A stretch of DNA of 24,541 nucleotides from a virus. The notes under the pieces were generated by a model. The model was not told the origin of the DNA, did no database searches, and was given only the letters and a program-made list of their open reading frames with translations. Below are positions 100-24,541 of this stretch, piece by piece; position 1 is the stretch's first letter, and every line of letters begins with the position of its first letter. The position numbers were made by a program, and so were the translations under genes. The stretch covers positions 1 through 24,541 of the IMG/VR virus record IMGVR_UViG_3300037264_002341; one strand, 5' to 3'.

Positions 100-150
100 G
101 CGGAAGCAGGCCCAAAGTTGGGTGTCACAAACTTCCTGAAGGAGCAGGGC

Positions 151-3117
151 ATGAACATCTACGCGGACGGCACAACCCGCCTGTACGAGTTAAGTGAGAC
201 CACTGCCGGTCGCAAGGGAGTGCCATCCAGTTTCATTGCTCGTGCTCTCAAAGAAACCCCCATGGCCGTATACCTCTATGGTCCTGGGGTAGACTGTTGG
301 ATCCCCAAATACGCCATTAAGCTCGCGGACCCGAATCGTGTTCAAGAGGCAATCGAGGTTCCTGATGAACACCCTATGTTCGAGACAACCGCCGCCTCAA
401 GCAATGGACCACAACGCTACGCCAAAATCTCTCGCATTGGGCCCGCTCGACAGAGGATGATCAAAATCGTGTTCCCATATGATTGGAGGGATATTACCAA
501 CGTCAAGAAGATAAAGGGAGCACGATATCAGCATGAGGTAGACGAGAAGTTCTTTGTCTGTCCCATCTCCGTGGACGCGGTGACAGCTCTGGACCAACTC
601 CAGTTTGCTCTCTCTCCAAAGCTCTTGAAGCTCCTAAATGAATCTCAAACAAATGTAGATCAAATAGAAGCAGTGACCGTGCCGGGCCTACAGGGTAAAC
701 TGTATCCCTTCCAAGAGAAGGGAGTAGCATATACAGAGTTCAAAAACGGAATGGCTCTCCTCGCCGATGATATGGGCTTAGGCAAGACGGTTCAAGCTCT
801 CAGTTTTCTACAACTTCATCCGGAGCTACGACCCGCCGTAATTGTAGTTCCGGCCTCCCTCAAATTGAATTGGGCGAGGGAGGCCCGGAGATGGATGGAG
901 CGCCCCCGTGCCCGAGTTTTGTCAGGATCCAAAGCAAATCCCCGCTGGCTGAGAGGGGAAATTCTCATAATCAACTATGACATACTCGCAAACAAATATG
1001 AAAAGTACATCGACAAGAAAGATGGCAAAAAGAAGGAACGTGAGCAACCGTTCACCGGCTGGGTCGATTACATAAAAAATCTGAATCCAAAAGTGGTGAT
1101 ATTAGACGAATGCTTCCCTGCCGGCACTCTTATCTCCACCCCAAGGGGGGAAGTGCCCATAGAACAATTAAAAGAGGGGGACTCAATATACAACGCACTG
1201 GGGGTGGGAAACATCACGAAGAAGGGGGAAAGATTTACCCATCACTTAGTTCGCATAACCATGAATAATGGAAAACAAATTACTTGTACTCCAAACCATC
1301 CCTTTTTCACTACGGAGGGATGGTATCCAGCCGAAAACCTTGCAGAAAAATTTCTCTTGACTCCCGCAACGATTTTTAATATACTGGAACGCGACGATAT
1401 ATTAAGAGGAGATTCTGACCATGAAACTGCGTCGCGGGAACCGAATCTGCCAATGGTGCAAAAAACCATTCAAAGTCACCCCCAACACATCTCCCAAACA
1501 AAGATTCTGCGGGAAGTCCTGCTCAGCGAAGTGGAGAATGTCACAACCTTCAATAAGGAAGGCCGTATACACGAAGGAACGATCTCAGAAAATGTCCGTC
1601 GGTCTCCAGAAAGCCCACGCCAGAAATCCACAATGGGCAAAAGACAACTCCGAACGCATGACGAAGAACAACCCCACCACGAACTCCGAGGTGGTAAAAA
1701 AGATAAAGGAACATTGGAAGAAATTCGGGCATCCCTTACAAAAACAACAGCTCAAAGGCGGGAACGGCAGACCCCTCCCCGCTCCCCAAAGAATTTTACT
1801 GGCAGCTTTAGGATCAAAATGGAAGGCGGAATTTGTAATCCCCACTCGGATGCCTCGATCTTCTTGCTACCCGACTCATTACAAAGTAGATTTAGGACTA
1901 CCCCAAAGCAAGCTTTGGATCGAGTTAGACGGATGGATTCACGAACTTCCAGAAATAGAAGCACAAGACCGAAAGAAGGAACGATTCCTGCGAGAACGCG
2001 GGTGGAAAGGGTTGAGATTTTTGAATACAAGAGTTCTGCAAGACTTGGAGGGCGTCTTGTCTACAATCTCGAAGTCTCTGGACATCCCTCCTATTACGCT
2101 GAAGGAGTCTTAGTACACAACTGTCAATTCATCAAAAACAGCGCGGCTCATAGAACCAAAGCGGTCAAGAAGTTAGTCCAGGGGGTGCCTCATGTTCTTG
2201 GACTTACGGGGACAGCAATTGAGAACCGGCCTGCGGAGATTTACAACATTATCCGGATAGTCTGCCCCGCTCTGTTCCCAGACCGTTTCTCATTTCTGAG
2301 GCGATACTGTGCAGGACGGCATACTGGTTGGGGTTGGGACTTTTCTGGAGCCTCCAACACCAAAGAGCTTCATCAAAAGCTAATAAACTCTTGCATGCTA
2401 CGACGTAGAAAAGCGGACGTGCTGCCAGAATTACCAGCTAAAATCCGCTCCGTAGTGCCGATTGAACTGGATCTTACGGCAGCAAAACTCTACCGGAAGG
2501 CGGAGAGCGACTTTATTGGATGGGTGCGCGAGACGAGGGGGCATAAGGCGGCGAAAAGGGCATCAAACGCGGAGGCCCTAACTCGAATCGAGGGATTAAA
2601 GCAACTTGCTGTTAAAGCAAAGATGACTCAAATGGTCCGATGGATCAAAGACTTCCTAGAAGTGAAGGACAAACTCGTCATCTTTGCGGAACATAAGGAA
2701 GTAGTAAATCAGCTGATGGCGGACCTGACCTCCTACAACCCTGTAGTAGTCGCCGGAGGAGTCTCAAAAGAGAATCGGCAACGGGCAGTAGACCGCTTCC
2801 AGACCGAAGACAACGTGCGAGTGATCCTCGGCTCCAAATCTTTAGCGATGGGCTGGACCTTAACCGCCGCTGCGGACACCTGCTTCACGGAGCTTTGGTG
2901 GACTCCCGGACTTCATGTACAAGCCGAGGACCGGGTCCACCGAATAGGCCAGGAAGCAGACTCAGTCAATGCTTACTATTTGATCGCAACAGAAACCATC
3001 GAGGAGGAGATCGCAGCGTTGTTAGACAAGAAGCGGAAGGTGTTAGATCAAGTACTGGATGGGATAGAGACGGATGATTCCAGTCTGTTAACCGAGCTGA
3101 TGAATGCTTACTCCTGA
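151..3117 (+). CDS. SNF2-family DNA helicase/ATPase interrupted by an intein
   Basis: This is a superfamily 2 ATPase of the SNF2 type. The N-terminal segment around 463-600 resembles the HARP-like region of SMARCAL1-type proteins. Motif I (DDMGLGKT) is at 766-789. Motif II is split: LDE ends at 1110 and CQFIKN resumes at 2122 after a 337-residue intein. The C-terminal helicase lobe carries LGLTGTAIENRP near 2200 and the motif VI form QAEDRVHRIGQ near 2920-2950. The unspliced chain is 988 residues and the spliced protein is 651. The ATG at 151 is preferred over an in-frame TTG at 118 because AAGGAG sits seven bases upstream of it. SNF2 proteins of phages are thought to remodel forks or displace proteins from DNA. 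A sigma-like gene follows directly. Confidence 0.93.
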   Translation: MNIYADGTTRLYELSETTAGRKGVPSSFIARALKETPMAVYLYGPGVDCWIPKYAIKLADPNRVQEAIEVPDEHPMFETTAASSNGPQRYAKISRIGPARQRMIKIVFPYDWRDITNVKKIKGARYQHEVDEKFFVCPISVDAVTALDQLQFALSPKLLKLLNESQTNVDQIEAVTVPGLQGKLYPFQEKGVAYTEFKNGMALLADDMGLGKTVQALSFLQLHPELRPAVIVVPASLKLNWAREARRWMERPRARVLSGSKANPRWLRGEILIINYDILANKYEKYIDKKDGKKKEREQPFTGWVDYIKNLNPKVVILDECFPAGTLISTPRGEVPIEQLKEGDSIYNALGVGNITKKGERFTHHLVRITMNNGKQITCTPNHPFFTTEGWYPAENLAEKFLLTPATIFNILERDDILRGDSDHETASREPNLPMVQKTIQSHPQHISQTKILREVLLSEVENVTTFNKEGRIHEGTISENVRRSPESPRQKSTMGKRQLRTHDEEQPHHELRGGKKDKGTLEEIRASLTKTTAQRRERQTPPRSPKNFTGSFRIKMEGGICNPHSDASIFLLPDSLQSRFRTTPKQALDRVRRMDSRTSRNRSTRPKEGTIPARTRVERVEIFEYKSSARLGGRLVYNLEVSGHPSYYAEGVLVHNCQFIKNSAAHRTKAVKKLVQGVPHVLGLTGTAIENRPAEIYNIIRIVCPALFPDRFSFLRRYCAGRHTGWGWDFSGASNTKELHQKLINSCMLRRRKADVLPELPAKIRSVVPIELDLTAAKLYRKAESDFIGWVRETRGHKAAKRASNAEALTRIEGLKQLAVKAKMTQMVRWIKDFLEVKDKLVIFAEHKEVVNQLMADLTSYNPVVVAGGVSKENRQRAVDRFQTEDNVRVILGSKSLAMGWTLTAAADTCFTELWWTPGLHVQAEDRVHRIGQEADSVNAYYLIATETIEEEIAALLDKKRKVLDQVLDGIETDDSSLLTELMNAYS
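1111..2121 (+). mobile_element. Contiguous intein inserted in the SNF2 motif II (Walker B)
   Basis: The intein begins with Cys at 1111 (CFPAGTLISTPRGEVPIEQL, block A) and has block B TCTPNHPFF with the TxxH signature. It ends in block F (VYNLEVSGHPSYYAEGVL) and block G (VHN), with Cys+1 at 2122. The flanking exteins rejoin as LDE-CQFIKN, the SNF2 DExx box, so splicing restores an active-site motif. It is 337 residues long. Residues 1-103 are the splicing N part. The stretch from about 1421 to 2000 in this frame has no recognisable domain because a homing endonuclease is encoded there in the +1 frame. The last 40 residues are the splicing C part. All residues needed for standard cis-splicing (C1, TxxH, HN, C+1) are present. 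Confidence 0.95.
1421..2113 (+). CDS. Homing endonuclease nested out of frame inside the SNF2 intein (Vsr/DUF559-like)
   Basis: This 230-residue protein is read in the +1 frame relative to the surrounding intein. AGAGGAG at about 1405-1411 lies nine bases before its ATG. The N-terminus has a Cys4 zinc knuckle (CQWC and CGKSC). The middle is Lys/Asn-rich like the DNA-contact regions of phage homing endonucleases. The C-terminal domain resembles Vsr/DUF559 nucleases: YKVDLGL, then LWIELDGWIHE, an Asp-Arg helix and RGWKGLRFLN. Members of this EDxHD group cut DNA to spread their host intein. The helix that often carries a catalytic Glu reads PQRILL here, so activity is uncertain. The stop codon lies eight bases before the intein end, so its last ~38 codons overlap intein block F. 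Confidence 0.85.
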   Translation: MKLRRGNRICQWCKKPFKVTPNTSPKQRFCGKSCSAKWRMSQPSIRKAVYTKERSQKMSVGLQKAHARNPQWAKDNSERMTKNNPTTNSEVVKKIKEHWKKFGHPLQKQQLKGGNGRPLPAPQRILLAALGSKWKAEFVIPTRMPRSSCYPTHYKVDLGLPQSKLWIELDGWIHELPEIEAQDRKKERFLRERGWKGLRFLNTRVLQDLEGVLSTISKSLDIPPITLKES

Positions 3118-11600: not shown

Positions 11601-12506
11601 ATGATGTTGTTTCTTGAACAACACTTCCTCGAACCAGAACGCCGGAAGCAAGCCGAATTTGCTGTGGTAGGAGCGGGTCTTATGGGCGCTACCATAGCAG
11701 AGATGCTACGATCTTGCGGATTGACTGGTGTTCTCCTGGACGATCCTTCCCCCTCGAATGAACCTGGAACCCGGGCTTGCGGAGGGCTTATCAAGCCTTC
11801 TCCCCTCTCAGGTCTCTCCTCAGAACAGACGAACAAATCCCTTGCTATACTTGACCGCTTCTTCGGCCTGCATCCGGAGACTCTGATCATTCGTCCGAGC
11901 GGGAATCTGATAAAGGCGAATGTTCAAGCAGTAAATATGGATCACATCTTCGCAGTCCCCCGAACCCCGGCCTTGGTGCACCGCGTCCACTCCGGAGTGC
12001 TACAATACCTCGATCAAAAAGACCGTATCGTGGAGTTAGAAAGCCCCTTGATCGTGGTGGCCGCAGGACCGGGAACACTAAACCTCTTCCCTCAGTTGAG
12101 AAGTTGTCTAGTAGTCAAACGGGGCTTCTCATTCCATATGAAAGGACGAGTCGCTCAGGGCTTCGTGAAGTTCTGGGCGCCCTACAAACAGGTTACGGTA
12201 CACAACACCCGCTTCGAGGGGGAGAAGATTGTATGGGCGGGTGAGGGGTCTGCCTTACGGCTTGAAAACTGGTATAGGGGGCGGATTCGGGAGGGACTAG
12301 CTCGTGTCCGGAAGGAGCTGCCTGAAAAGGAATATCCTCTCATCCGCACGGTGACGGGCCTCCGTCTGTTCCACCATCACCGTAAGCCTTGTTTCGTAGA
12401 GAAAATGGATAAAGGATTATATGTAGTAACCGCCGCTGGTAAGTTCGGATTGATCTCCGCCGGTTACGCTGCGATGGAGGTGGCCAAACATGAAAGACTT
12501 GCTTGA
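11601..12506 (+). CDS. FAD-dependent oxidoreductase (DAO/glycine-oxidase-like)
   Basis: 301 residues. The dinucleotide-binding motif VVGAGLMGATIAEML (GxGxxG at 24-29) followed by an acidic residue ending strand 2 (LLDD) marks an FAD Rossmann fold. The C-terminal RTVTGLRLF and the GLYVVTAAGKFGLISAGYAA segment match the end of D-amino-acid/glycine oxidase family proteins, where it contacts FAD. It is shorter than typical DAO enzymes (about 360-380), with a reduced substrate domain. It opens the metabolic cassette and overlaps the aldo/keto reductase gene by 17 bases. Substrate unknown; amines or amino-acid adducts are likely for the family. Confidence 0.8.
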   Translation: MMLFLEQHFLEPERRKQAEFAVVGAGLMGATIAEMLRSCGLTGVLLDDPSPSNEPGTRACGGLIKPSPLSGLSSEQTNKSLAILDRFFGLHPETLIIRPSGNLIKANVQAVNMDHIFAVPRTPALVHRVHSGVLQYLDQKDRIVELESPLIVVAAGPGTLNLFPQLRSCLVVKRGFSFHMKGRVAQGFVKFWAPYKQVTVHNTRFEGEKIVWAGEGSALRLENWYRGRIREGLARVRKELPEKEYPLIRTVTGLRLFHHHRKPCFVEKMDKGLYVVTAAGKFGLISAGYAAMEVAKHERLA

Positions 12507-13485
12507 GCGACTTCGGGATTACAAGAGTCTAGTGGATGCGAAGCGGGACCCAGAGATGTATGATTTCCTTTGGGGGGTCACTTGCCAAATTGGTTGTCGC
12601 CTCGGGGTGGATGAGTTTGTTCAGGAGTACGGCTGGCCGGGGCTTAAAGCGGTAGCCGAGCACCCCTTCCATCATGTCTATGTTAGCGATCCAGTCAAGA
12701 TCGAGCCTTACCGACCCCAACTGGCTATCGGCACTTACAGATGGAAATATGACCCAAAACCAATTTTGCTTGCCATTAAAAAAGGAGTGGATTTTATTGA
12801 CACTGCTCCTACCTATGGTTACGGCAAAGTGGAAGAGCGTCTGAAGGACGTGCTTACAGGAAAGAAGTTGGAGGTGGTAATAGGTTCCAAATTCGCTAGG
12901 AACAGGATGTCCTTCAACAACGTAGTCAGTTCCTGTAGGCGGACGGCCAAACGCTTCACGACTCTTCCGATCCACCTACAGCTCCATTGGCCGAATATAA
13001 AGTATCCTCTTCCTGAGGCACTACGGGCAATGCGATACTTGTTCAAGAATGGGGAAGTTGCTAGTCTCGGCGTCTGCAACATGTCGGTACCATTACTCCG
13101 TGTCGCCCGATCTTTGGCGCCTATCTCGACTGTTCAAGGACCGCTGAGCGTTTTCGTGCCTCAAGCCAAGGACTTTCTGTTGCCCTATTGCGAGAAAGAG
13201 GGGTTGACCTTCTTGGCTTACGGTCCTCTAGGTCAGGAGCCAAAAAAGCTCCTCCAGGAACGGGATCCAAAAGGCTTCTTCAAGAGGAAGGCCCGCGAAC
13301 TGAATTGCGAAGTCTCCCAAGTCCTCCTCGCGTGGGTCTGGGCTCAGGGGGCGGTCCCGATGCCCGCAACGAACAAGGTGGAACATATGAGAAGCAATCT
13401 TGACGCTCAGCAGGTGGACATGCCCCCCGACATCGTTCAGGAAATAAATGACTTCATGGAGAAAGCGGGGGCGGTGAGAAGTTAG
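12490..13485 (+). CDS. Aldo/keto reductase
   Basis: 331 residues, with GGAGGTGG six bases before the ATG. The (beta/alpha)8 NADPH-dependent reductase fold is shown by LAIGTYRW, FIDTAPTYGYGKVEERL and SLGVCNMS. The catalytic tetrad is complete: Asp104, Tyr109, Lys134 (IGSKF) and His166 (LQLHWPN). The C-terminal VLLAWVWAQGAVPMPATNKVEHM corresponds to the cofactor 2'-phosphate region. There is an extra N-terminal segment of about 70 residues (with WGVTCQIGCRLG) not usual in the family. It would reduce a carbonyl, perhaps one made by the FAD enzyme upstream. Such a gene is unusual in a phage replication region. Confidence 0.9.
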   Translation: MKDLLERLRDYKSLVDAKRDPEMYDFLWGVTCQIGCRLGVDEFVQEYGWPGLKAVAEHPFHHVYVSDPVKIEPYRPQLAIGTYRWKYDPKPILLAIKKGVDFIDTAPTYGYGKVEERLKDVLTGKKLEVVIGSKFARNRMSFNNVVSSCRRTAKRFTTLPIHLQLHWPNIKYPLPEALRAMRYLFKNGEVASLGVCNMSVPLLRVARSLAPISTVQGPLSVFVPQAKDFLLPYCEKEGLTFLAYGPLGQEPKKLLQERDPKGFFKRKARELNCEVSQVLLAWVWAQGAVPMPATNKVEHMRSNLDAQQVDMPPDIVQEINDFMEKAGAVRS

Positions 13486-14577
13486 ATGTCCTCCATATAC
13501 ATACCAAAAAGCCGGACGGGATTGAGTGTTCGAGGAGATTCATTGTATTGCCCCCTTGCCTTCACTCTTGATCCATATTGGTGGTGCGAGCCGGATTGTC
13601 TCCATTGTTATCTGCGTCGTCTCAACAAACTTTGGGGCACGGAACAGCGGGGGTTGAATTTAGAAAAGCTGGACCATCGCCTGTCTATGGGCCCTCTCAG
13701 GAAAAAACCAAAAACACCCCTAGCCAATTGTTTGGCAAACCGCAACACGATACGAGTGGGTAACAAAGCGGACCCCTTCCAACCGATAGAGCGGCAGCAA
13801 CGGTTGGCTACCCATTCCCTTCGACTTCTGTACAAATACCGATGGTCGTTTGTCATCCAGACCCGGTTTCCGGGGACGGTTCTGGACTTGGCCTCGACAA
13901 TCTTGGAGAAGTGCGTCCCACTCAATCTCGCTACTGTTATGCCCGTCATCTCTCCGGGGATGGAGCGAGATTGGGAACTGTTTGAGCAGAAGCGCACGGA
14001 GCCCATCAAAGAGCGTCTGAGGTCTATCAAAGACCTCATTAAGATAGGCGTGAATGTAGGAGTCAATGGAGAGCCCTTTATTCCGGGCTTCCATGTCCTT
14101 GGAGATTTCGAGGACACTTTGAAAAGGCTCAAAGCAATAGGAGTGAGTCGTTACAACACTTACAACTTACACTTCACCGAATTCGTAGCCAAGCGGATCC
14201 ACGATTTGCCAGGAGTAGATATAGAAAGGATATGGTATGAAAATCAAGACAAGCGTTGGCGCATTACCCTTACTAGGCTAATCGAGCTTGCAAAGAAACA
14301 CAACTTCATTCTCGGCTGTCCTGATTTCGTCAACTCCGGTCCCCGCCATCTGGAAGAGGCTAACACCTGTTGTGGAGTGGACGTTCCACGACCCACGACA
14401 TTCAATACGCACTATTTCAAACGTCTTGCTCAAAAGGGCTATGTAGCAGAGAGGATAGTCAAGTCCACTTGGGATGGAGTGGGAGACCTTGACCGGGGTC
14501 GAAAGATCATTCGGGGAGCTAAGACAGATTTTTACACCTTAAAAGACGCCGAGGTGAAGGTCAAGGAGAGTGGCTAA
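13486..14577 (+). CDS. Radical SAM enzyme, spore-photoproduct-lyase-like
   Basis: 363 residues. The 4Fe-4S site Cys34-x3-Cys38-x2-Cys41 lies in WWCEPDCLHCY. Downstream, RVGNKADPFQPIERQQRL followed by a TxxFPGT strand and a VMPVISPGMERDWE segment matches the SPL-like branch of radical SAM proteins, whose founding member acts on thymine lesions in DNA. A CCGVDVPRP segment near the C-terminus gives extra Cys. It begins directly after the stop of the reductase gene and shares one base with the next gene, so the cassette is translated as a unit. Substrate is unknown; a DNA base is possible by analogy with SPL. Confidence 0.85.
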   Translation: MSSIYIPKSRTGLSVRGDSLYCPLAFTLDPYWWCEPDCLHCYLRRLNKLWGTEQRGLNLEKLDHRLSMGPLRKKPKTPLANCLANRNTIRVGNKADPFQPIERQQRLATHSLRLLYKYRWSFVIQTRFPGTVLDLASTILEKCVPLNLATVMPVISPGMERDWELFEQKRTEPIKERLRSIKDLIKIGVNVGVNGEPFIPGFHVLGDFEDTLKRLKAIGVSRYNTYNLHFTEFVAKRIHDLPGVDIERIWYENQDKRWRITLTRLIELAKKHNFILGCPDFVNSGPRHLEEANTCCGVDVPRPTTFNTHYFKRLAQKGYVAERIVKSTWDGVGDLDRGRKIIRGAKTDFYTLKDAEVKVKESG

Positions 14578-15455
14578 TGAGTCTCCGAAGGAACACTCCT
14601 GTAGAGGAATATCCACTCGCCGTCCGCGTGTCCAACGTCCCGGTTAGGATAAGGGGGCCGGTAGATATTTTGGTCAAGCGAGAGGACCTTTGCTGCGATC
14701 CTCCGGGGCCTCCCTTCGCTAAGGTCCGGGGTCTCTTAATCCGCCTTCAGAATTTGAAAAGGCAAGGTCTTCACACTATTGGCTATATGGAAAACTCAAT
14801 CTCTATGAATGGCTGGGGAGTGGCCTGGACCTGTGCTGAATTAGGTATGCAAGCGGTCATCTATGACCCCCAATACAACTGCTATTCAGAGGTTCTGGAC
14901 TACCACCGCAAGCTTTGGAAGGAGCTTGGAGCTTTGATCCGGACAAATCCGGGGGGTGTATCCAAAGTGGATTTCGCCGTCTGCCGAGACACCTTTGAGA
15001 AGGAGTTCGGTCCAAATGCGACTCTGCTCTATCCCGGTCTGTCGTTCATCGAGACGGTGATCGCAACTGCAGAGGAAGTTGAGAGGACGATAAAACGTCT
15101 GAAGAAACGGGCGAAGACGGTTGTGGTCAACGTTGGAAGCGGGATTATTGCTGCTGGGATCTGGCGAGGTTTTGAGAAACATTGTCCGGATGTAATCATA
15201 CACGGCATCATGGGACACTCGGGAGACTTAACCCGGAAGATGAATGACATCGAGAAGAATTCCGGACTCCTCCATCAAAAGCAACTCCGATCCAAGTTTG
15301 TACTCCATGATCCCGGTTGGAAATACACCGAACCAAGCGAAGTTCCAAGTCCCTTCCCCTGTAATCAATTCTATGATTTGAAGGCGTGGGAGTGGCTTGT
15401 TCAAAATTTTCATAGGCTCGATGAACCGATCCTCTTCTGGAACATTGGGGCATAG
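14577..15455 (+). CDS. PLP-dependent enzyme, fold type II (ACC-deaminase/Trp-synthase-beta-like)
   Basis: 292 residues. The segment DILVKREDLCCDPPGPPFAK resembles the N-terminal part of fold-type II enzymes, with Lys49 in FAKVRG the likely Schiff-base lysine. SMNGWGVAWTCAELGMQAVI matches the substrate/cofactor loop and helix, and NVGSGIIAAGIWRGF replaces the glycine-rich phosphate-binding loop. It is slightly short for the fold. Relatives carry out beta-elimination, deamination or replacement on amino acids. It lies between two radical SAM genes, sharing one base with the first (TAATGA). Substrate unknown. Confidence 0.75.
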   Translation: MSLRRNTPVEEYPLAVRVSNVPVRIRGPVDILVKREDLCCDPPGPPFAKVRGLLIRLQNLKRQGLHTIGYMENSISMNGWGVAWTCAELGMQAVIYDPQYNCYSEVLDYHRKLWKELGALIRTNPGGVSKVDFAVCRDTFEKEFGPNATLLYPGLSFIETVIATAEEVERTIKRLKKRAKTVVVNVGSGIIAAGIWRGFEKHCPDVIIHGIMGHSGDLTRKMNDIEKNSGLLHQKQLRSKFVLHDPGWKYTEPSEVPSPFPCNQFYDLKAWEWLVQNFHRLDEPILFWNIGA

Positions 15456-15457
15456 TC

Positions 15458-15994
15458 ATGGACTATTTTGAGCTAAGACGCCTCGTCAGCCGGATCGTTC
15501 CCCGTATGACCCAACTTCAAGTGTCCAAACGGAAGGTGGACGCGGTGAAGGAGAAGGGGCGCAAGAAGAACTATCATCAATTCAACCTGCGCGATGGGGA
15601 ATGGCGGAAGCAGGAACGGCTTCTGAATACCGAGGCCATCAACTCCTTCCTGGAAATCTCGGTGAGAGCGGCAGCCTGCCCGATGCCCTTCAATATGGAC
15701 ATTTGGGACGGGCTTCTCTGTGTTGCGGAAGGGCAACGGGTCCAGACCTCTGATGGAAAAGTTCCTATCGAGAAAGTCAAGGCTTGTGATGTTGTCTGGA
15801 CTTTCAACGAGGAGGAACAGCGCCGCCAACTGGCTCGGGTAACTCAAATCTCTAACACCATTCGAAAGAACCTGGTTGAAGTTGAGACCGAAGAGGGGAC
15901 CATCCGGTTAACTGAAGACCACCGAGTGCTTACCCAACGGGGTTGGATTCCTGCGGGGCAACTTACGGAAGAAGACCTGATGTATGTCTGGTAA
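15458..15994 (+). CDS. Radical SAM enzyme N-extein fused to split intein N half
   Basis: 178 residues. Residues 1-87 are the N-extein of a second radical SAM protein, ending WDGLL. Cys88 (nt 15719) begins an intein: block A CVAEGQRVQTSDGKVPIEKV and block B RLTEDHRVLT with the TxxH signature, then a stop at 15992 soon after GWIPAGQL. The intein N half is 91 residues. The C-extein is encoded 0.8 kb downstream in the same frame (16796-18076), where IntC ends HN followed by Cys. This half lacks the Fe-S cysteines and cannot be an active enzyme alone. The full 473-residue protein needs trans-splicing. The stop overlaps the endonuclease gene by 11 bases. Confidence 0.93.
   Translation: MDYFELRRLVSRIVPRMTQLQVSKRKVDAVKEKGRKKNYHQFNLRDGEWRKQERLLNTEAINSFLEISVRAAACPMPFNMDIWDGLLCVAEGQRVQTSDGKVPIEKVKACDVVWTFNEEEQRRQLARVTQISNTIRKNLVEVETEEGTIRLTEDHRVLTQRGWIPAGQLTEEDLMYVW
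15719..15991 (+). mobile_element. Split intein, N-terminal half (IntN)
   Basis: 91 residues from Cys1 to the residue before the stop codon, with blocks A and B. Together with the 40-residue IntC this gives a 131-residue mini-intein, the size of known natural split inteins. Confidence 0.92.
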
Positions 15995-16814
15995 GCTCTG
16001 TAAATGCGGTTGTGGAATTCCCATCCCTTTCGGCTCAACCTGGGCAAAGGGACACAACCGTCGGGGGGAGAAGCACTCGAAGGCCGCTCTCCAGAAGATG
16101 CGAGAAGCCCGACTGGGAAACACCCCTTGGAATAAAGGGAAGCCCAGAACTGAAGAAGAGAAGGAAGCGATGCGGCGGGGCATCTCTACAGAAGAGCGGG
16201 AGAGGCGTTCCAAAAGGACAACGAGAGGTTGGAAGGAAGGTCGGTACGATTTCATGAATGGCAAGACTAACCCGGCCTGCCGTCCGGAGGTCGCTACCAA
16301 AATAGGGGAAGCCAACAAAGGCCGGATTATCTCGAAAGCTACCAGACACAAGTTGAGTAAATCCCGCCTGGGGAAACCCGGCCAGGTCGTCTCGGAGAGG
16401 GTAAAGAAGCTCCACTCCAAACGGATGAAGAAGGACAATCCCATGTATCACAAGGACGTTCTTCAAAATCATCCGGTCCTCCGAGGGGGAAGGTACTACA
16501 TTTCCATCGGAGAGAACAAGGTGGCCGGGCTTCTGACCGAGATGGGGATAGCCTTTGAGAGGCAAAAGCTCCTCCGCAAACAGGTCGGCTACTACGTTGC
16601 GGACTTCTTCTTAACCGGCCACGACGCAATAATCGAGTTTGACGGGCACTATTCTCATGTAGAGAACGCGGAGAAGGACCGTCAGCGAGACTGCTATCTC
16701 TTGAGAAGATACGGCTACCGAACTCTGCGCTTGGTGTCCATGGATCTGAACAATAGGAACAGAGAAGACCTTATCCAGAAGATACGGGAGTTTCTATGGA
16801 ACTCAAACCAGTAA
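15984..16814 (+). CDS. Free-standing homing endonuclease between the split intein halves
   Basis: 276 residues. The N-terminus has a Cys motif (CKCGCG) and several NUMOD3-like segments (GHNRRGEKHSKAALQKMREA, LGNTPWNKGKPRTEEEK, GRIISKATRHKLSKSRLG), which are DNA-binding repeats of phage homing endonucleases. The C-terminal nuclease is Vsr/DUF559-like (EDxHD group): GENKVAGLLTEMGI, YYVADFFL, AIIEFDGHYSH, then KDRQRDCYLLRRYGYRTLRL. The Glu, Asp and His-Asp residues expected for the group are all present. It should cut an intein-free allele of the radical SAM gene. Its start overlaps IntN by 11 bases and its end overlaps IntC by 19, so all three cistrons are coupled. It is in the +1 frame relative to the halves. 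Confidence 0.88.
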   Translation: MSGKLCKCGCGIPIPFGSTWAKGHNRRGEKHSKAALQKMREARLGNTPWNKGKPRTEEEKEAMRRGISTEERERRSKRTTRGWKEGRYDFMNGKTNPACRPEVATKIGEANKGRIISKATRHKLSKSRLGKPGQVVSERVKKLHSKRMKKDNPMYHKDVLQNHPVLRGGRYYISIGENKVAGLLTEMGIAFERQKLLRKQVGYYVADFFLTGHDAIIEFDGHYSHVENAEKDRQRDCYLLRRYGYRTLRLVSMDLNNRNREDLIQKIREFLWNSNQ

Positions 16815-16915
16815 AGGTGAAACGGGTCCGCAAGATTCCAGGGGAGTATCGAGTGTACGATATCACCGTGGACCGCAACTCCAACTTCTTCGCGGAGGGG
16901 CACCTAGTTCACAAC
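16796..16915 (+). mobile_element. Split intein, C-terminal half (IntC)
   Basis: 40 residues with blocks F and G, ending in His-Asn just before Cys+1 at 16916. It provides its own start codon and ribosome binding site. Confidence 0.92.
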
Positions 16916-18076
16916 TGTCCCTTTGCTTGTATCTATTGCTACGCGAATTCCTTTAGGGCCAGTCTTTACACGGCCTTCTTCGACAACTCGAAGACCATGG
17001 GATTCCGTCATTGCAATCCCACCTACTACAAGAAGGAGATGGACAAGATGTTGAAATTCCGCTCTCTCCCATTCTCGGAGAAGCGGACGCTAACAGGCAT
17101 TAACAAAGCCTTCGCCCTTGATATTCCCGTCCGCATGGGTATCCGCTTCGAGGACTTCCTGCGAAATGAGCAGAGGGCCGGAGTCAGTCTGGAGATGTTG
17201 AACTACCTAGCTGATATTAGTTATCCGATCATGATCAACACGAAGTCCTACATTCCAGGACAGGACGCCTACGTGAAAGCTCTCTCTCGAAACGAGGCCG
17301 GAGCGGCTATTCACGTCACTGTCATCTCCTGCAATGAGGAGATACTACGAAAGTTGGAGCCTGGGGCACCATCCTACAAACGGCGGCTGGAGACGATGAG
17401 GAATCTCTGCTCTGCAGGGGTGCGGGTAGTCGCTCGGATCGAGCCCTATCTGTTCCTTCTCACTGATGATCCGGACGACCTGAAGCAATATATGGAAGAG
17501 GTGTATGGAACCGGGGTAAGGCATATCACATTCGACACCTACTCTTACACGGCCCAAAATCCAGGGATTCGTCAGGCCTTTATCAATGTGGGATATGACT
17601 ATGACCGTCTTTTCCTCGCCGGATGCGATAGCCAACCACTTGGAAGCCTTCTTTTGGCTAAATTTATGGACCTGTTTAGAGCTAGGGGATTTTTCTGCTC
17701 TACATTCGATATGGGAAATGTTCCTAGTAACGACCAAGCCATCTGCTGCGAAGTAGGAGACTGGTTCAAGGGGGGCTTCAACTACGGCTGCACCGTTATG
17801 GCGGCTCGGTTCATCCGAGACCAGTCCAAGAAGCTCGGTCCCAATATGGGAGTCTGCTGGTCGGACTTTGTATATTGGGTCGTTAAAAGGGGAGGCTTCC
17901 TCACCCCCGAACTACAACGGATGGTCCACGAACTCTGGAACCTCGGGGGAAATGTTGCTTACAGCCCTCGTTGGGCTCAGGGGCTAGTTCCTTGCGGAAT
18001 GGACGACGACGGCCTCATCTGGATCCATGAACCGAGCCGCGATCATCGGCAAACTCTCTTGGAGGAATTGATATGA
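16796..18076 (+). CDS. Split intein C half fused to radical SAM C-extein
   Basis: 426 residues, with GGGAG five bases before the ATG. Residues 1-40 are IntC: block F YRVYDITVDRNSNFFAEG and block G HLVHN. Residue 41 is both the +1 Cys for splicing and the first Cys of the radical SAM cluster CPFACIYCYA (Cys41, 45, 48). The rest is SPL-like: VRMGIRFEDFL, a YPIMINTKSYIPG strand, HVTVISCNEEILRKLEP with GAPSYKRRLETM, and VVARIEPYLFLL. A late CC motif (AICCEVGDWF) may hold a further cluster. Without splicing it would carry the cluster but lack 87 N-terminal residues. It shares ATGA with the next gene. Confidence 0.93.
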   Translation: MELKPVKVKRVRKIPGEYRVYDITVDRNSNFFAEGHLVHNCPFACIYCYANSFRASLYTAFFDNSKTMGFRHCNPTYYKKEMDKMLKFRSLPFSEKRTLTGINKAFALDIPVRMGIRFEDFLRNEQRAGVSLEMLNYLADISYPIMINTKSYIPGQDAYVKALSRNEAGAAIHVTVISCNEEILRKLEPGAPSYKRRLETMRNLCSAGVRVVARIEPYLFLLTDDPDDLKQYMEEVYGTGVRHITFDTYSYTAQNPGIRQAFINVGYDYDRLFLAGCDSQPLGSLLLAKFMDLFRARGFFCSTFDMGNVPSNDQAICCEVGDWFKGGFNYGCTVMAARFIRDQSKKLGPNMGVCWSDFVYWVVKRGGFLTPELQRMVHELWNLGGNVAYSPRWAQGLVPCGMDDDGLIWIHEPSRDHRQTLLEELI

Positions 18077-18255
18077 GTCCCGCTATTGCCATCCCGAAGG
18101 ACAAATGCAACAACTGTCACTTTCGACCCTATCTGGACGATGCCTGGCGCTGCGGATGGTATCGCCGCCCGTTGACTCCTCGACAGGTTCGGGGAACCTC
18201 ACATAAACCGTTCTGGTGTAAACTACTTGCGGCCATAGGACAGGAGAGATCATGA
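18073..18255 (+). CDS. Small four-cysteine protein, probably zinc-binding
   Basis: 60 residues with Cys12, Cys15 (CNNC), Cys27 and Cys49, a spacing that could bind zinc or an Fe-S cluster. It overlaps the radical SAM gene upstream and the next gene downstream, each by ATGA. Basic C-terminal half. No family recognised; its coupled position suggests a partner of the radical SAM protein. Confidence 0.65.
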   Translation: MSPAIAIPKDKCNNCHFRPYLDDAWRCGWYRRPLTPRQVRGTSHKPFWCKLLAAIGQERS

Positions 18256-19043
18256 AGATTGACAATTTGGTGGAGGACCTCTTCTCTCACGCGGTGGCTT
18301 TAGACCAGAGTGGGGGACTGCGCAATACCATCTATGCTCTAGGAAAGGAAATCTTCATACTCAACTATGACTATACGGTATTGCTTCGCTTTCTTCTCAG
18401 GAAGTCTGAGGCCCCATTCCATGATCACATTTCCTTCCGCGCCAACGACTATGACAGTCGTGAATTCGAGGAACGGGACGGAATGATCGTCTTCACGAGT
18501 CAGAATGATCGTTACACTCGCCGCAAGAGTTGCGGGACACCGGACCTCCCTCCAGAGGACGTCAAAGCCCTCTACCGGCGGTATGCGGCGGTGGAGGAGG
18601 ACAAGAGCTTCGAGGTTGAAATTCACAAAGATGTTCTGTCCCTCTTGGATCGAGACCTGAGTCACATCGAGTTCCGTGGCAAGAAGGGGGATCCAATCAA
18701 GCTCGTCCAACGCAACATTTACTCAGGGGCCATCATCGAGATCGAGGAGAGGTTGGCGGGTCTGTTCAAAGCTTGTCTTGCCCCTCGGAACTTCGGCCCT
18801 CTGGCTCTGAGGACTCCAGACTTCGCGGCTCTGTTTGCCTTCCAAGACTTGCTAAGGTTCAACTTTCCTCTGGACAATAGACACGGCGACTTCATCCGGG
18901 TGGATAGCATCGACAAGAACAAGCGAGACATGACGGGCTTCATTGCCTGTTGTCTATATGATGAGATCATCGAAATCTTAGCTAGTGATATCCGGAAAAC
19001 CAAGCAGATAGTGGTAGACGAAATATTGAAAAGGAGGAAGTGA
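18252..19043 (+). CDS. Hypothetical protein, unknown
   Basis: 263 residues, soluble and mixed alpha/beta. Visible segments include KEIFILNYDYTVLLRFLLR, HISFRANDYDSREFEERDG, a Tyr/Arg-rich stretch and a hydrophobic helix (GFIACCLYDEIIEILASDI) near the C-terminus. Strand-rich central segments loosely recall sliding-clamp-like modules, but this is too weak to assign. It starts by ATGA overlap and is followed after a single base by the small basic gene, so it belongs to the same operon as the radical SAM cassette. Confidence 0.7.
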   Translation: MKIDNLVEDLFSHAVALDQSGGLRNTIYALGKEIFILNYDYTVLLRFLLRKSEAPFHDHISFRANDYDSREFEERDGMIVFTSQNDRYTRRKSCGTPDLPPEDVKALYRRYAAVEEDKSFEVEIHKDVLSLLDRDLSHIEFRGKKGDPIKLVQRNIYSGAIIEIEERLAGLFKACLAPRNFGPLALRTPDFAALFAFQDLLRFNFPLDNRHGDFIRVDSIDKNKRDMTGFIACCLYDEIIEILASDIRKTKQIVVDEILKRRK

Positions 19044-19044
19044 G

Positions 19045-19191
19045 ATGGCCGGAGGTAAGTCAAGGAAGTCTGGCGGCGTCTCGAAGGCCCTCATCGAGAA
19101 GATCAAGAGGGGAGACTACTCCAAGAAGTCCTGCGGGACCAAGAAGAAGAAGGGGTCTGAGCTTGAACTTGTACCTGAAAAGACTAAGTGA
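19045..19191 (+). CDS. Small basic protein, 48 residues
   Basis: AAGGAGG with seven bases of spacing precedes the ATG at 19045. The product is very basic (GGKSRKSGGVSKALIEKIKR, then CGTKKKKG) with one Cys. Codons lean towards G/C endings. It may bind nucleic acid, but no family is recognised. Its end overlaps the start of the next gene in another frame. Confidence 0.65.
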   Translation: MAGGKSRKSGGVSKALIEKIKRGDYSKKSCGTKKKKGSELELVPEKTK

Positions 19192-19927
19192 GCTGAACGT
19201 CAAGCCTAACTTCTTTGTGAGCCGTCCGCTTCTCACTCTCTTTGGAGCGCGACCCAGAGAGAATGACCAATGGCTCTGGCTAGAAGACAAGGAGGAAATC
19301 TGTCTTTTGCCGCCCCTCCCGAAGGGGGGACATACCGGAGGCTGGCCGGTCGATTTCGTCTGGGCAGATTTCGATGATTTCCCACCTCCCGAGGGTGAAC
19401 GGAAGTTCCTAGATCACGAGTATCTGTTCCGGCCCGCCGACTTCCTAACCATGGAGGGGGGGAAGTGGCAGGCTTTCAGGAAGAACAGTCGCAAATGGCC
19501 GAGGGGTCGCAAATGGCGAATGTCATACACCACGAGGCCCGGGAAGGCGCTGGACCGTCTAGTAGCCCGTTGGTTGAGCAAGCGCCCTAATATGGAAGGG
19601 GCCGAGGCCCTGGCCTCCATGGTCCTTAATCCTTCCTTTGGAGTACAGAGAGCTTGCCTATATCTGTATTCAAGTCATTTGGTGGCGGTGAATGTTTGGG
19701 ACTACAATCATATGTTTATCAATTACCGCTATTGCATCTGTCCGGATGAACCATATTTAGATGAATTCATGCGATTGCAATTCTATCTCGGGATGAATCA
19801 GATCCATCCGGGCATGCTAGTAAATGACGGAGGCTCAGTAGGGCAACCTGGGATCGAGGCTCACAAAGACAGAATGAACCCGTTCCGTAAGCGAGAGGTC
19901 AGATCGTGGTCATTGATACGTCCCTAA
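19163..19927 (+). CDS. DUF2156-like (GNAT-fold) acyl or aminoacyl transferase
   Basis: 254 residues if started at TTG 19163, which has AAGGGG seven bases upstream; the frame is open further upstream but overlaps the basic gene there. HEYLFRPADFLTMEGGKWQ followed by FRKNSRKW resembles the (D)YLYxxxDLxxLxGxxxxxKRNxxNxF motif of the DUF2156/phosphatidylglycerol lysyltransferase C-terminal family. VNDGGSVGQPGIEAHKDRMN near the end resembles the matching NxxxDxGxxGLRxxKxxxxP motif. These enzymes use aminoacyl-tRNA or acyl-CoA donors. The protein has no membrane segments, so lipid is an unlikely acceptor. It ends the metabolic cassette. Confidence 0.55.
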   Translation: MNLYLKRLSELNVKPNFFVSRPLLTLFGARPRENDQWLWLEDKEEICLLPPLPKGGHTGGWPVDFVWADFDDFPPPEGERKFLDHEYLFRPADFLTMEGGKWQAFRKNSRKWPRGRKWRMSYTTRPGKALDRLVARWLSKRPNMEGAEALASMVLNPSFGVQRACLYLYSSHLVAVNVWDYNHMFINYRYCICPDEPYLDEFMRLQFYLGMNQIHPGMLVNDGGSVGQPGIEAHKDRMNPFRKREVRSWSLIRP

Positions 19928-20127
19928 CAGGCAAAATTACTCATAGGTGCTCGTGCGGGCAGGCTAACGGTATGAAAATGCCGGACGGGAAGAAACTGAT
20001 AAAGTCCATCCAGTTGATTATTATTCATCCGGATGGGCTAGTTGAAGGGGAATGTATTAAATGTAAGAGAAGGACAACCCTTCCATTACGATTCGCTCCA
20101 ATCAAAACTCAAAGGAGGGAAGGATGA
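19906..20127 (+). CDS. Small zinc-ribbon protein
   Basis: 73 residues from a GTG at 19906 with GAGAGG seven bases upstream. CSCG near the N-terminus and CIKC near the C-terminus frame a small beta ribbon, typical of zinc ribbons in transcription or replication accessory proteins. It overlaps the transferase gene by 22 bases and the clamp gene by ATGA. No specific family recognised. Confidence 0.65.
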   Translation: MVIDTSLTGKITHRCSCGQANGMKMPDGKKLIKSIQLIIIHPDGLVEGECIKCKRRTTLPLRFAPIKTQRREG

Positions 20128-21146
20128 AGATCAAGAGGCTAGAGTTGTTGGAGGCTCTGGAGATAGTCAGACCCGGACTGGCTACTGGCAAGGAAGTGAT
20201 AGAACAGTCAAGCTCATTCGCCTTCCGGGGAGGGCGAGTGATTACCTACAATGATGAGATCAGCATCGCTCATAAAATTGAGGGGATGGACCTCGAAGGG
20301 GCGATCAAGGCGGAGGAACTCTATCAGTTGCTAGGCAAGATCAAGGCAGAGGAGATCTCAATAGCAACCACGGACAATGAACTCCGGATCAAGGCAGGGC
20401 GCTCCAGAGCCGGAATCAAACTCCAGACCGAGATCAAATTGCCTCTGGATGAGATTAGTGAGATAGGGGACTGGGAGCCAATACCAGAAGACCTTATCCC
20501 CAATCTCAGCATGGCTCTACCTTGCGTAGGCCGGGAAGCTTCCCGACCCGTCCTACAAAATATCCACATACGGAAGGATGGGAAAGTTGAAGCTTCTGAT
20601 AGCCTTCGAGCCATCCAGTGTGTCGGCACGGAGTTGCCCATCCCAACTTGCCTCATTCCCGGTTCCACCGTTCGAGAGTTGATTCATTACCCGCTTACCG
20701 AGATGTCTCATAATCAGGGATGGCTCCACTTCAAGACGAAACAGGGGACAATCATCTCCTGCCGAACCGTGAATGACAACTATGTGAACGTGGATGAGGT
20801 TATCCACGTGAAGGGGGAGGAGATCCACCTTCCCGATAATCTCGGAGAGATTCTGGAGAAGGCGGCCATCTTCGTCAAGGGCGATAAGGCGGTCAAGGAA
20901 GAAGTGGAGATCAGGTTCGCCGAAGGCAAGATGGTTATTCGAGGGGAAGGAAACTATGGATGGTTCCAAGAACAGGCTGATCTGGATTACAAGGGTGAGG
21001 AAGTGACAATCACCGTCAATCCAACAATGCTCAAGACCATTGCCTCTAAGGTGAAACGCTGCGTGCTCGGAGAGAACAGTATGCGTTTCGATGGCGAGAG
21101 CTGGATTTACATCGTTGCTCTGACTACTATGAAAGAAGGAAGGTGA
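20124..21146 (+). CDS. dnaN: DNA polymerase sliding clamp (beta/DnaN-like)
   Basis: 340 residues, slightly shorter than bacterial DnaN (about 366). The N-terminal domain has the strand-helix pattern of a clamp and SIATTDNELRIKAGRS, the equivalent of the DnaN segment preceding the first domain boundary. The middle domain has SMALPCVGREASRPVLQNIH, a good match to the DnaN sequence where domain 2 begins (F..vAfAvs.De.rpvLnGv). The third domain ends SWIYIVALTTMKEG, in place of the DnaN C-terminal YVVMPMRL. A phage-encoded ring clamp would tether the family A polymerase and other proteins to DNA. It overlaps the zinc-ribbon gene by ATGA, and the clamp loader begins at 24381. Confidence 0.82.
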   Translation: MKIKRLELLEALEIVRPGLATGKEVIEQSSSFAFRGGRVITYNDEISIAHKIEGMDLEGAIKAEELYQLLGKIKAEEISIATTDNELRIKAGRSRAGIKLQTEIKLPLDEISEIGDWEPIPEDLIPNLSMALPCVGREASRPVLQNIHIRKDGKVEASDSLRAIQCVGTELPIPTCLIPGSTVRELIHYPLTEMSHNQGWLHFKTKQGTIISCRTVNDNYVNVDEVIHVKGEEIHLPDNLGEILEKAAIFVKGDKAVKEEVEIRFAEGKMVIRGEGNYGWFQEQADLDYKGEEVTITVNPTMLKTIASKVKRCVLGENSMRFDGESWIYIVALTTMKEGR

Positions 21147-21149
21147 ACT

Positions 21150-21578
21150 ATGTGTTATCCATATCCAGAGGAGTGGAAATGGCAGAAGGAACTCCAGCGC
21201 CCCTGCTTTGATGGGGGTACTGGACAAGAGTGCGAATGCGTCGAGGGCACCAACCAACAGAACGAGTGTCTAATCCTCCGCTTCGAGGAGCGGAGCTGGC
21301 TTGCTTGTACCTCTGGGGGGCTCTACCCCTACCTGTCCGATTACCGCCGCTCCTTTGCGGGGGATCCCGATGTGGAGGAGCAGCGGTGCCGGGCCAATTC
21401 CGCCGAGGCCCAAATGAAAGATGCGGCTGGACTCCTACGGAGGGTGGTCGTAGTTGACGGTCGATTCAGACAACTCAGGCCGAGGGACGACCGCGTAGCG
21501 GTCCAACAGGAAGTCTACCGTTTACTTGGCATTGGAGAAGATGTCTTCAAGTTCCTCAAGGAGATAGGGGAAGGATAA
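21150..21578 (+). CDS. Hypothetical Cys-rich protein
   Basis: 142 residues with AAGGAAGG upstream of the ATG. The N-terminal half has Cys at C2, CFDGG, CEC, NEC and ACTSGG, suggesting metal binding. The C-terminal half is charged and helical (VQQEVYRLLGIGEDVFKFLK). No family recognised. It lies three bases after the clamp gene and before a tiny membrane peptide gene. Confidence 0.6.
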   Translation: MCYPYPEEWKWQKELQRPCFDGGTGQECECVEGTNQQNECLILRFEERSWLACTSGGLYPYLSDYRRSFAGDPDVEEQRCRANSAEAQMKDAAGLLRRVVVVDGRFRQLRPRDDRVAVQQEVYRLLGIGEDVFKFLKEIGEG

Positions 21579-21581
21579 GTA

Positions 21582-21692
21582 ATGGACGCAGCAAGTTTCT
21601 TGGCGGGGTTAATTCTCGGTTTGTGCCCCGGTGCCGTAATTGGTGTCCTTCTTTTCCTGTATTTGAGGGAGTACATAAATAAGTGCAAATAG
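21582..21692 (+). CDS. Tiny single-span membrane peptide
   Basis: 36 residues with AAGGA six bases upstream of the ATG. One hydrophobic helix (FLAGLILGLCPGAVIGVLLF) is followed by a basic tail (LREYINKCK). It overlaps the next gene by 10 bases. Too short to assign; position between the clamp and polymerase genes gives no functional clue. Confidence 0.5.
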   Translation: MDAASFLAGLILGLCPGAVIGVLLFLYLREYINKCK

Positions 21693-22954
21693 GCTTATTC
21701 AGCAAACAAGAGACCGCTTCCAAATTTCGTCCTGATGGGAAGGGTCACACCTGCGCCAAATGCGGTCTCTACAAGTACGTCATCAGTCCCCGAATGAAGC
21801 CCTACGGAGACTTCAAGAAAGGAATCCTCAACATAGGGGAGGCTCCGGGGGAACATGAGGACCGACGGGGCAAACAATGGCAAGGGAAAACGGGTCGAGC
21901 TTTGAAGGCGATGTACGACAGTCTTGGTATTAACCTGTTCAAGGATTGTATCAATATTAATGCCATCAATTGCCGACCCACTAAAGATTCAGGCAACCGA
22001 GAGCCGGAAGACGAGGAGATCACATCCTGCCGGAGGCGCGTGTTCGAGGTTATAGACGAGTACAAACCAAAACTTATCATGCTCTTTGGGGGGTGTGCCG
22101 TCAAAAGTGTCATCGGCTCTCGGTGGACTAAGGATTTGGGAGGCATCTCAAGATGGCGAGGCTGGACCATCCCTGATCGGGAACTGAATGCTTGGATCTG
22201 TCCCGTCTTCCATCCGAGCTATGTAGAGCGCGGAGAAGCTCAGATTGAGGTCATATGGGAAAAGGATTTGCGCCGCGCTTTCCGAAAGATAGGCAAACCC
22301 ATTCCCGAATTCATAGATGAGCGGACACAGATCGAGATACTTACGAATCCCAAAGACATTCGGCGGATGCTCATAGATGTAATGCAAGGCACCCCCTTCC
22401 ATCCCTACTTTGTGGCCTTCGACTATGAGACAACGGGAATGAAGCCACAACGGAAGGGACACAAGATCATCTGCGCCTCAGTATGTGCAGAACCGGGCAA
22501 GGCTTACGCCTTTATGATGATGGAGGAAATCTGGAGAATTTGGCGAGTATTCCTCCGGAGTGACATAGGCAAGATAGCACAGAACCTAAAACACGAAGAC
22601 AATTGGTCAAAGGTCCTCCAGAAAACGGACGTCAAGAATTGGGCCTGGGATCCAATGCTGGCTGCTCGATTACTCGCCGGAAGGCCGGGTTGCGCTTCAT
22701 TGAAATTCCAAGCCTATGTTCGATACGGTCTGCCCAACTGGCAATATGATTGGGTTGAGGACTTCCTAGAAATGGAGGACAACAAGGATGGTAATTCATT
22801 CAACCGGATTGAGGAACTGGTAAAAAGCGAGAGGGGGCAAAGAATGCTCTTGGAATATTGCGGGATTGACGGTCTGAAGACTCTGCCCCTCTCCTTAGAA
22901 CAAATGCAAGAAATGGGATTGGATCCCGAGAAGATTGCCCGAGGGATTCTATAA
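21683..22954 (+). CDS. Fusion of uracil-DNA glycosylase (family 4/5-like) and 3'-5' exonuclease
   Basis: 423 residues from GTG 21683. Residues 1-200 form a UDG with GEAPG at 52-56, four cysteines in the family 4 Fe-S pattern (24, 27, 97 in NCRP, 116) and HPS at 177-179. Residues 240-420 form a DnaQ/Pol I-type exonuclease: Exo I FDYETTG (Asp247, Glu249), Exo II AQNLKHED (Asp306) and Exo III YCGID (Tyr-x3-Asp). The polymerase domain is the next gene, so the proofreading part of a family A polymerase has been separated from it and fused to a uracil-removing enzyme. The N-terminus MQIGLF contains a QxxLF clamp-binding-like peptide. The start lies inside the membrane peptide gene. Confidence 0.88.
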   Translation: MQIGLFSKQETASKFRPDGKGHTCAKCGLYKYVISPRMKPYGDFKKGILNIGEAPGEHEDRRGKQWQGKTGRALKAMYDSLGINLFKDCININAINCRPTKDSGNREPEDEEITSCRRRVFEVIDEYKPKLIMLFGGCAVKSVIGSRWTKDLGGISRWRGWTIPDRELNAWICPVFHPSYVERGEAQIEVIWEKDLRRAFRKIGKPIPEFIDERTQIEILTNPKDIRRMLIDVMQGTPFHPYFVAFDYETTGMKPQRKGHKIICASVCAEPGKAYAFMMMEEIWRIWRVFLRSDIGKIAQNLKHEDNWSKVLQKTDVKNWAWDPMLAARLLAGRPGCASLKFQAYVRYGLPNWQYDWVEDFLEMEDNKDGNSFNRIEELVKSERGQRMLLEYCGIDGLKTLPLSLEQMQEMGLDPEKIARGIL

Positions 22955-22956
22955 TT

Positions 22957-24369: not shown

Positions 24370-24380
24370 AGGAGGGATGA

Positions 24381-24541
24381 GTGGAACTCTACAAGAAATA
24401 TCGACCCTCAGATTTTGATGACATCCTTAGCAACCGAGAGGCTGTCAAGTTTCTTGAGTCTGAGGCCGAGAAGGATGATCCAAGTCATGCCTATCTCTTC
24501 ATCGGGGAGCACGGCTGTGGCAAAACTACGCTTGCCAAGAT
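24381..24541 (+). CDS. Clamp loader ATPase subunit (DnaX/RFC-like), cut by the window edge
   Basis: The first 53 codons of an AAA+ protein, starting at GTG 24381 with AAGGAGGG just upstream. ELYKKYRPSDFDDIL at the N-terminus is the hallmark of DnaX and RFC small subunits, and LFIGEHGCGKTTLAK is the Walker A motif. The rest lies beyond the window. It would load the sliding clamp encoded at 20124. Confidence 0.85.
   Translation, partial: MELYKKYRPSDFDDILSNREAVKFLESEAEKDDPSHAYLFIGEHGCGKTTLAK

Follow-up and report, generated by a model that had tools for sequence, protein, structure and literature searches.

"Fractured genes," in which split inteins stand together with a Vsr-like/EDxHD endonuclease, were reportedly described from environmental sequences by Dassa et al. 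in 2009. In that type, an N-extein joined to the N-terminal intein half (IntN), a free-standing endonuclease, and the C-terminal intein half (IntC) joined to the C-extein follow one another in environmental phage DNA. We analyzed such an arrangement at positions 15458 to 18076 of the IMG/VR virus record IMGVR_UViG_3300037264_002341, whose full 24,541 nucleotides are called the window here. The host gene, which encodes a radical S-adenosylmethionine (SAM) protein, is distributed over two cistrons, each with half an intein, and an endonuclease open reading frame (ORF) lies between them. This layout agrees with the published type, a match that an initial annotation of this DNA had already drawn. 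The locus differs from that type in its radical SAM host and in the insertion within the Fe-S motif. In addition, its relatives include cases in which the endonuclease is fused to one intein half, either IntN or IntC, and they have two insertion sites 21 bp apart.

An intein in a radical SAM protein is not in itself new. The NCBIfam model NF038136 describes intein-containing radical SAM proteins of the Rv2578c family, with the intein likewise inside the CX3CX2C motif. That model is contiguous (574 residues), and its break fell on the third cysteine in all 4 of the uninterrupted homologues that were read, which places the known radical SAM intein at the position that we call site b; this placement was taken from the model break in uninterrupted homologues and not from intein-bearing members. 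In contrast, the insertion in the window lies before the first cysteine (site a). The window scores at best 47.8 bits as DNA and 56 bits as protein against the NF038136 cut-off of 700 bits, and none of the 80 genomes searched had a match over that cut-off. The initial annotation had called the host unusual. This does not hold for a radical SAM host as such, which NF038136 already represents, but the insertion before the first cysteine is without precedent in the literature searched. In that literature, which included few subscription papers and thus supports an absence weakly, we found neither an intein located at the first cysteine, nor a fusion of an endonuclease with an intein half, nor a comparable series of states; no paper in it joined an intein with Rv2578c. 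One source (PMC3322345) concerns inteins in genes other than radical SAM genes. The MCM inteins of Haloarchaea (PMC10643990) also occupy several neighbouring sites within one gene; they are contiguous LAGLIDADG inteins, whereas the present sites lie 7 residues from each other and combine split with contiguous inteins. New to us are both the insertion ahead of the first cluster cysteine and the series of intein states at two sites.

A radical SAM gene in three overlapping cistrons

The following features, all on the + strand, make up the locus.

15458..15718, + strand: N-extein (87 aa) of the radical SAM protein, contiguous with the C-extein in 19 of 21 relatives searched piecewise (see below)
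15719..15994, + strand: IntN, 91 aa plus stop codon, with Cys1 at 15719 and the TEDH of block B at 15911-15922
15984..16814, + strand: free-standing endonuclease ORF, 276 aa, with NUMOD3 and DUF559 (ORF list and domain search)
16786..16790, + strand: GGGAG, possible ribosome-binding site for the IntC cistron
16796..16915, + strand: IntC, 40 aa, with HN at its end (domain matches and intein alignment)
16916..18076, + strand: C-extein, 386 aa and stop, with the radical SAM domain (domain search and relatives)

Three cistrons are therefore present, as first annotated: 15458-15994 (178 aa), 15984-16814 (276 aa), and 16796-18076 (426 aa), with overlaps of 11 nt between the first and second and 19 nt between the second and third. 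The outer two share one frame, which is interrupted by nine in-frame stops. This number is not significantly low (13.2 expected; 7.6% of 3000 shuffles were as low). Domain searches agreed with the division. The N part matched Hint_2 (9.5e-5), Intein_splicing (1.7e-4), and TIGR01445 (2.5e-4), and the middle ORF matched DUF559 (1.5e-9) and NUMOD3 (1.9e-7), both over cut-off. The C part matched TIGR01443 intein_Cterm (9.2e-8) and Radical_SAM (6.7e-7) over cut-off and Intein_splicing (6.4e-6) under cut-off.

Class 1 inteins carry Cys1, TxxH, HN, and Cys, Ser, or Thr at position +1. The splicing junctions had been described as intact, and we found Cys1, TEDH, HN, and Cys+1 all in place; in our alignment, the same class 1 residues occur in the other 12 radical SAM intein rows and in a second intein of the window, in an SNF2-type helicase. 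The C-extein opens with CPFACIYC (16916-16939), so that Cys+1 is the first cysteine of CX3CX2C. Joining the two exteins yields 473 aa with an unbroken CX3CX2C, the full radical SAM cluster motif that had been anticipated. Together, these data support the reading of the locus as a split intein with a free-standing endonuclease of the Vsr/EDxHD kind in a radical SAM host gene.

The initial annotation had named uninterrupted homologues as the way to confirm the junction. With the C-extein as query, 21 relatives were retrieved from IMG/VR (loci are designated L here); a second, alignment-based scan yielded 74 loci, among them the contigs of all 21. The motif was crossed in one segment in 57 of the 74 loci and interrupted in 17, which indicates that the two parts are normally one protein. 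When the N- and C-exteins were searched separately, 19 of the 21 relatives had no insert at this bond, and L003 and L014 were interrupted. Three contigs of metagenome-assembled genomes (L110-L112), among 34 pattern-matching stretches, encode near-full-length relatives and may be prophages or stray phage contigs. CX3CX2C was found in 70 of 70 assembled exteins (59 uninterrupted, 11 joined across inteins). L050, which has a stop at its very end, was left out of one alignment. In L092:5001-6294 the motif is uninterrupted, yet the radical SAM frame is broken near residue 240 by error or decay.

The PF04055 match of the window extein is just above cut-off. A structural model of one uninterrupted homologue (L005; mean predicted local distance difference test [pLDDT] score, 79) has a radical SAM fold and matched lipoyl synthase, SkfB, SuiB, and spore photoproduct lyase with E values of 2e-4 to 1.3e-3; its residues 81-120 have block mean pLDDT values of 34-62, too low to place the insertion on the fold. 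The extein profile had no match among PDB sequences at 0.01. The C part corresponds to phrog_13321 in PHROGs, annotated as of unknown function, and NCBIfam relates it distantly to the Rv2578c/PA0069 radical SAM proteins. Cultured phages gave no match by tblastn of the C-extein or megablast of 14001-24541.

The endonuclease had been called Vsr-like, and its structural model is in line with this. The model has a mean pLDDT of 64.5 and is good in the C-terminal domain only. The first of 453 Foldseek matches was 3r3p, the EDxHD homing endonuclease I-Bth0305I (E 4.9e-4; TM score of 0.76 by target length), followed by NGO0050, which was also the single match of a sequence-profile search with E up to 1 (3hrl, 3.7e-4). 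A Vsr-like catalytic fold is therefore predicted. Identity to I-Bth0305I is 25% in the aligned part, and, as a further difference, the window endonuclease is encoded between intein halves. It is 61% identical to the endonuclease of L099, 54% to that of L076, and 47% to that of L085. As an IMG/VR query, it retrieved 14 pattern-matching stretches, one of which encodes a relative (L026, 27% identity).

Two insertion sites and the movement of the cassette

The inteins of the relatives use two positions, one ahead of the first cysteine (site a) and the other 21 bp downstream, ahead of the third (site b), and the 17 interrupted loci represent ten arrangements. L059, L060, L061, and L096 are identical over the region, as are L084, L085, L086, and L097; L088 and L094 share their first 333 residues, but only 1341 of 1824 ungapped bases match over the gene. 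At site a, the intein is split with a free-standing endonuclease in the window, L073, L099, and L085, split in L076 as well, where the endonuclease continues in frame from IntN as a fusion, and a contiguous mini-intein in L060. At site b, it is split with the endonuclease fused to IntC in L003, L014, and L060 and a contiguous mini-intein in L085, L087, L088, and L098. The free-standing endonuclease of the initial annotation is thus correct for the window, but it is one state among several in the family. The endonucleases of the two sites are remotely related by profile comparison (E 2e-6).

Two arrangements, L060 (L060:3616-5042) and L085 (L085:3015-5000), are occupied at both sites, with one intein split, one contiguous, and exactly one endonuclease in each. 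Their middle extein is 7 residues long (CPFACIY and CSYACKY) with two of the cluster cysteines, and it would need joining on both sides. EDxHD enzymes have a target of nearly 60 bp, as stated in PMC3943268, and neighbouring inteins are reported to interfere with one another (PMC10643990). Were the target of the present enzymes of that length, occupation of either site would disrupt the target belonging to the other one.

In a tree of the inteins, the rows grouped by site into two lineages (6 rows for site a and 7 for site b, support 98/95), each with contiguous and split members. This tree requires three changes between the contiguous and the split state, with the SNF2 intein counted as contiguous; L098_b and the SNF2 intein are long branches of unsure placement. 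On the extein tree (67 rows), occupancy requires five changes for site a and five for site b. This tree was built without L098 and L099 (short pieces), L092 (frameshifted), and L095, L059, L061, L096, L084, L086, L097, and L094 (unassembled, being truncated or copies). The extein nearest to that of the window belongs to L003 (73% identity, support 96), which is occupied at site b and empty at site a. A profile of the relatives' mini-inteins, made without the window halves, matched gp41-1 and NrdJ-1 (6qaz, 1.8e-7; 8ubs, 8.1e-13), although its best match was the Spl DnaX mini-intein (7.2e-22).

L099, L085, and L073 have the three-cistron layout at the same site as the window, with a related intein and a related endonuclease. 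L073 and L099 are close to each other in the cassette, which is identical at 1191 of 1210 bases (98.4%). Their exteins are less alike, with 231 of 255 bases identical for the N-extein and 67 of 72 for the C-extein piece that was available, and the sequences upstream show no ungapped likeness (158 of 499). Synonymous differences numbered 9 in 274.7 sites of the cassette versus 25 in 71.9 sites of the exteins (Fisher, 2e-12). The cassettes are so much closer than the exteins that the three cistrons must have moved as a unit. L112 provides the empty site: it is contiguous at the junction, with no bases gained or lost, and its flanks agree with those of L073 in 106 of 120 bases on one side and 102 of 120 on the other. 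At the sequence level, the L073/L099 comparison and the L112/L073 pair carry the signature of homing of the whole three-cistron unit in these relatives.

These states bear on the origin of naturally split inteins and on how an endonuclease lands between the halves. One host family has two sites, each found empty, contiguous, and split, and an endonuclease that is free, fused to IntN, or fused to IntC. With the empty/occupied pair and the recently moved cassette, this range makes the order of events and the competition between overlapping sites directly testable. The family also contributes further candidates for split inteins, as well as a metallo-enzyme in which splicing is predicted to be needed to complete the cluster site.

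Predicted trans-splicing and homing

We consider it very probable that the window carries a mobile three-cistron element before the first CX3CX2C cysteine, with predicted trans-splicing and homing of the whole cassette. According to our model, the element encodes IntN, a homing endonuclease of the DUF559/EDxHD type, and IntC, each of which would be translated from its own start codon. The N-extein-IntN and IntC-C-extein products would be made separately, associate, and trans-splice by Cys1/Cys+1 chemistry to the 473-residue radical SAM protein. As Cys+1 is a presumed [4Fe-4S] ligand, the cluster site would be complete only after splicing. The endonuclease would cut intein-less alleles at the motif, and repair would copy the whole cassette in.

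Several points weigh against this reading. Splicing, translation, and cutting are all predictions from sequence. The three IntN domain scores (Hint_2, Intein_splicing, and TIGR01445) are all under the curated cut-offs, and the ribosome-binding match at the endonuclease start of the window extends to 3 bases at best. The homing signature comes from relatives and not from the window's own copy, and the synonymous count for the cassette takes the short ORF overlaps twice.

The alternative that survives best is a dead fracture, in which the intein halves have lost the ability to splice, with the gene in decay or its C part working alone. The nine stops in the frame between the halves would suit it, as would the fact that splicing activity is a prediction only. 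However, every nucleophile and block motif is present both in the window and in the 12 further intein rows of the alignment, and an unspliced C part would begin with IntC and lack the conserved N-extein. The N-exteins of L073 and L099 differ by 3 nonsynonymous versus 21 synonymous changes, which indicates that both halves are under constraint in this pair. We therefore regard a dead fracture as unlikely.

A single precursor made by programmed frameshifting and spliced in cis is less likely still. Start and stop codons do overlap at both joints of the window, but the shift from the N part to the endonuclease is +1 in the window and L099 and +2 in L085, L003, L014, and L060, so that no single shift is conserved. 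Ribosome-binding motifs also precede the IntC starts: GGAG in the window and L085, TAAGGAG in L073 and L099, and TAAGGA in L076, with GAGGT or AGGAGGT upstream of the endonuclease-IntC fusions. Ahead of the free endonuclease starts, the match extends to just 3 bases in the window and in L073 and L099, whereas L085 has GGAG. Because frame relations vary between lineages, separate initiation of the cistrons appears likelier than frameshifting.

All of these sequences are metagenome contigs, and a contiguous intein could look split through an assembly or sequencing error; this is very improbable, given that the outer frame holds nine stops, which one sequencing indel does not explain, and that the layout is repeated in L073, L099, and L085. 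The notion that the parts are normally separate subunits with incidental intein-like ends had nothing in its favour and is refuted for this family by their fusion at exactly this bond in 57 of 74 relatives.

A second intein in the window and the neighbouring genes

The SNF2-type helicase encoded at 118-3117 contains a second intein, which overlaps an endonuclease gene.

1111..2121, + strand: contiguous intein in the SNF2-type helicase, between DE and C (domain search)
1421..2113, + strand: DUF559 endonuclease ORF nested in another frame of the intein (DUF559, E 1.4e-11)

This intein matched Intein_splicing (6.8e-10) and TIGR01443, the latter over cut-off. The nested ORF extends over its IntC as well, giving dual coding over 693 nt. 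When the synonymous codons of the endonuclease were shuffled, the intein frame acquired 8.1 stops on average and was free of stops in 0 of 3000 shuffles, whereas the actual intein frame has no stops. Shuffling of the intein codons left the endonuclease frame open in 1.2% of 5000. The nearest precedent that we found is the ShiLan out-of-frame HNH element (PMC11855218), where a phage gene carries an insertion without stops and an endonuclease is likewise encoded in another frame of it; its authors could call that insertion neither intein nor intron, whereas the SNF2 insertion is a clear intein.

Helicases occur in 10 of the 21 first-scan records, none of them with an intein-size insert, and the SNF2 protein with its intein, used as a query, gave 9 stretches and no relative. 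Among the best 80 of 301 relatives from a C-extein profile search, some on contigs already seen, 79 were classed as uninterrupted from their local DE/C motif, and the remaining one, L133, carries a mini-intein at this bond. The other frame of that mini-intein (L133:3322-3489) retains a match to the final part of DUF559 (E 1.6e-5, above the Pfam cut-off), which suggests that L133 probably once held a nested endonuclease gene, deleted except where its DNA is shared with IntC. The openness of this fossil frame (0 stops versus 1.1 expected; 14% of 5000) is not significant alone.

It is conceivable, though we hold the idea only tentatively, that the window shows two stages of one route to split inteins. 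Endonuclease genes would come into inteins from elsewhere, out of frame, and then fracture the intein, fuse to one half (L076, L003, L014, and L060), or be deleted (the L133 fossil). The SNF2 locus would represent a nested endonuclease in a still contiguous intein, and the radical SAM locus an endonuclease between halves whose outer frame has filled with stops.

Elsewhere in the window, sequence like that of DNA polymerase A extends across two adjacent ORFs, with no intein seen at the break between them. The first (21683-22954) consists of UDG and a stretch matching phrog_17 478-827, and the second (22957-24369) matches phrog_17 834-1237. The radical SAM gene closes a run of enzyme genes (11601-18076) inside the phage replication region, namely an FAD oxidoreductase (11601), an aldo/keto reductase (12490), a second, PA0069-like radical SAM ORF (13486), and a pyridoxal phosphate-dependent enzyme (14577). 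As a guess, this run may constitute a base- or nucleotide-modification pathway.
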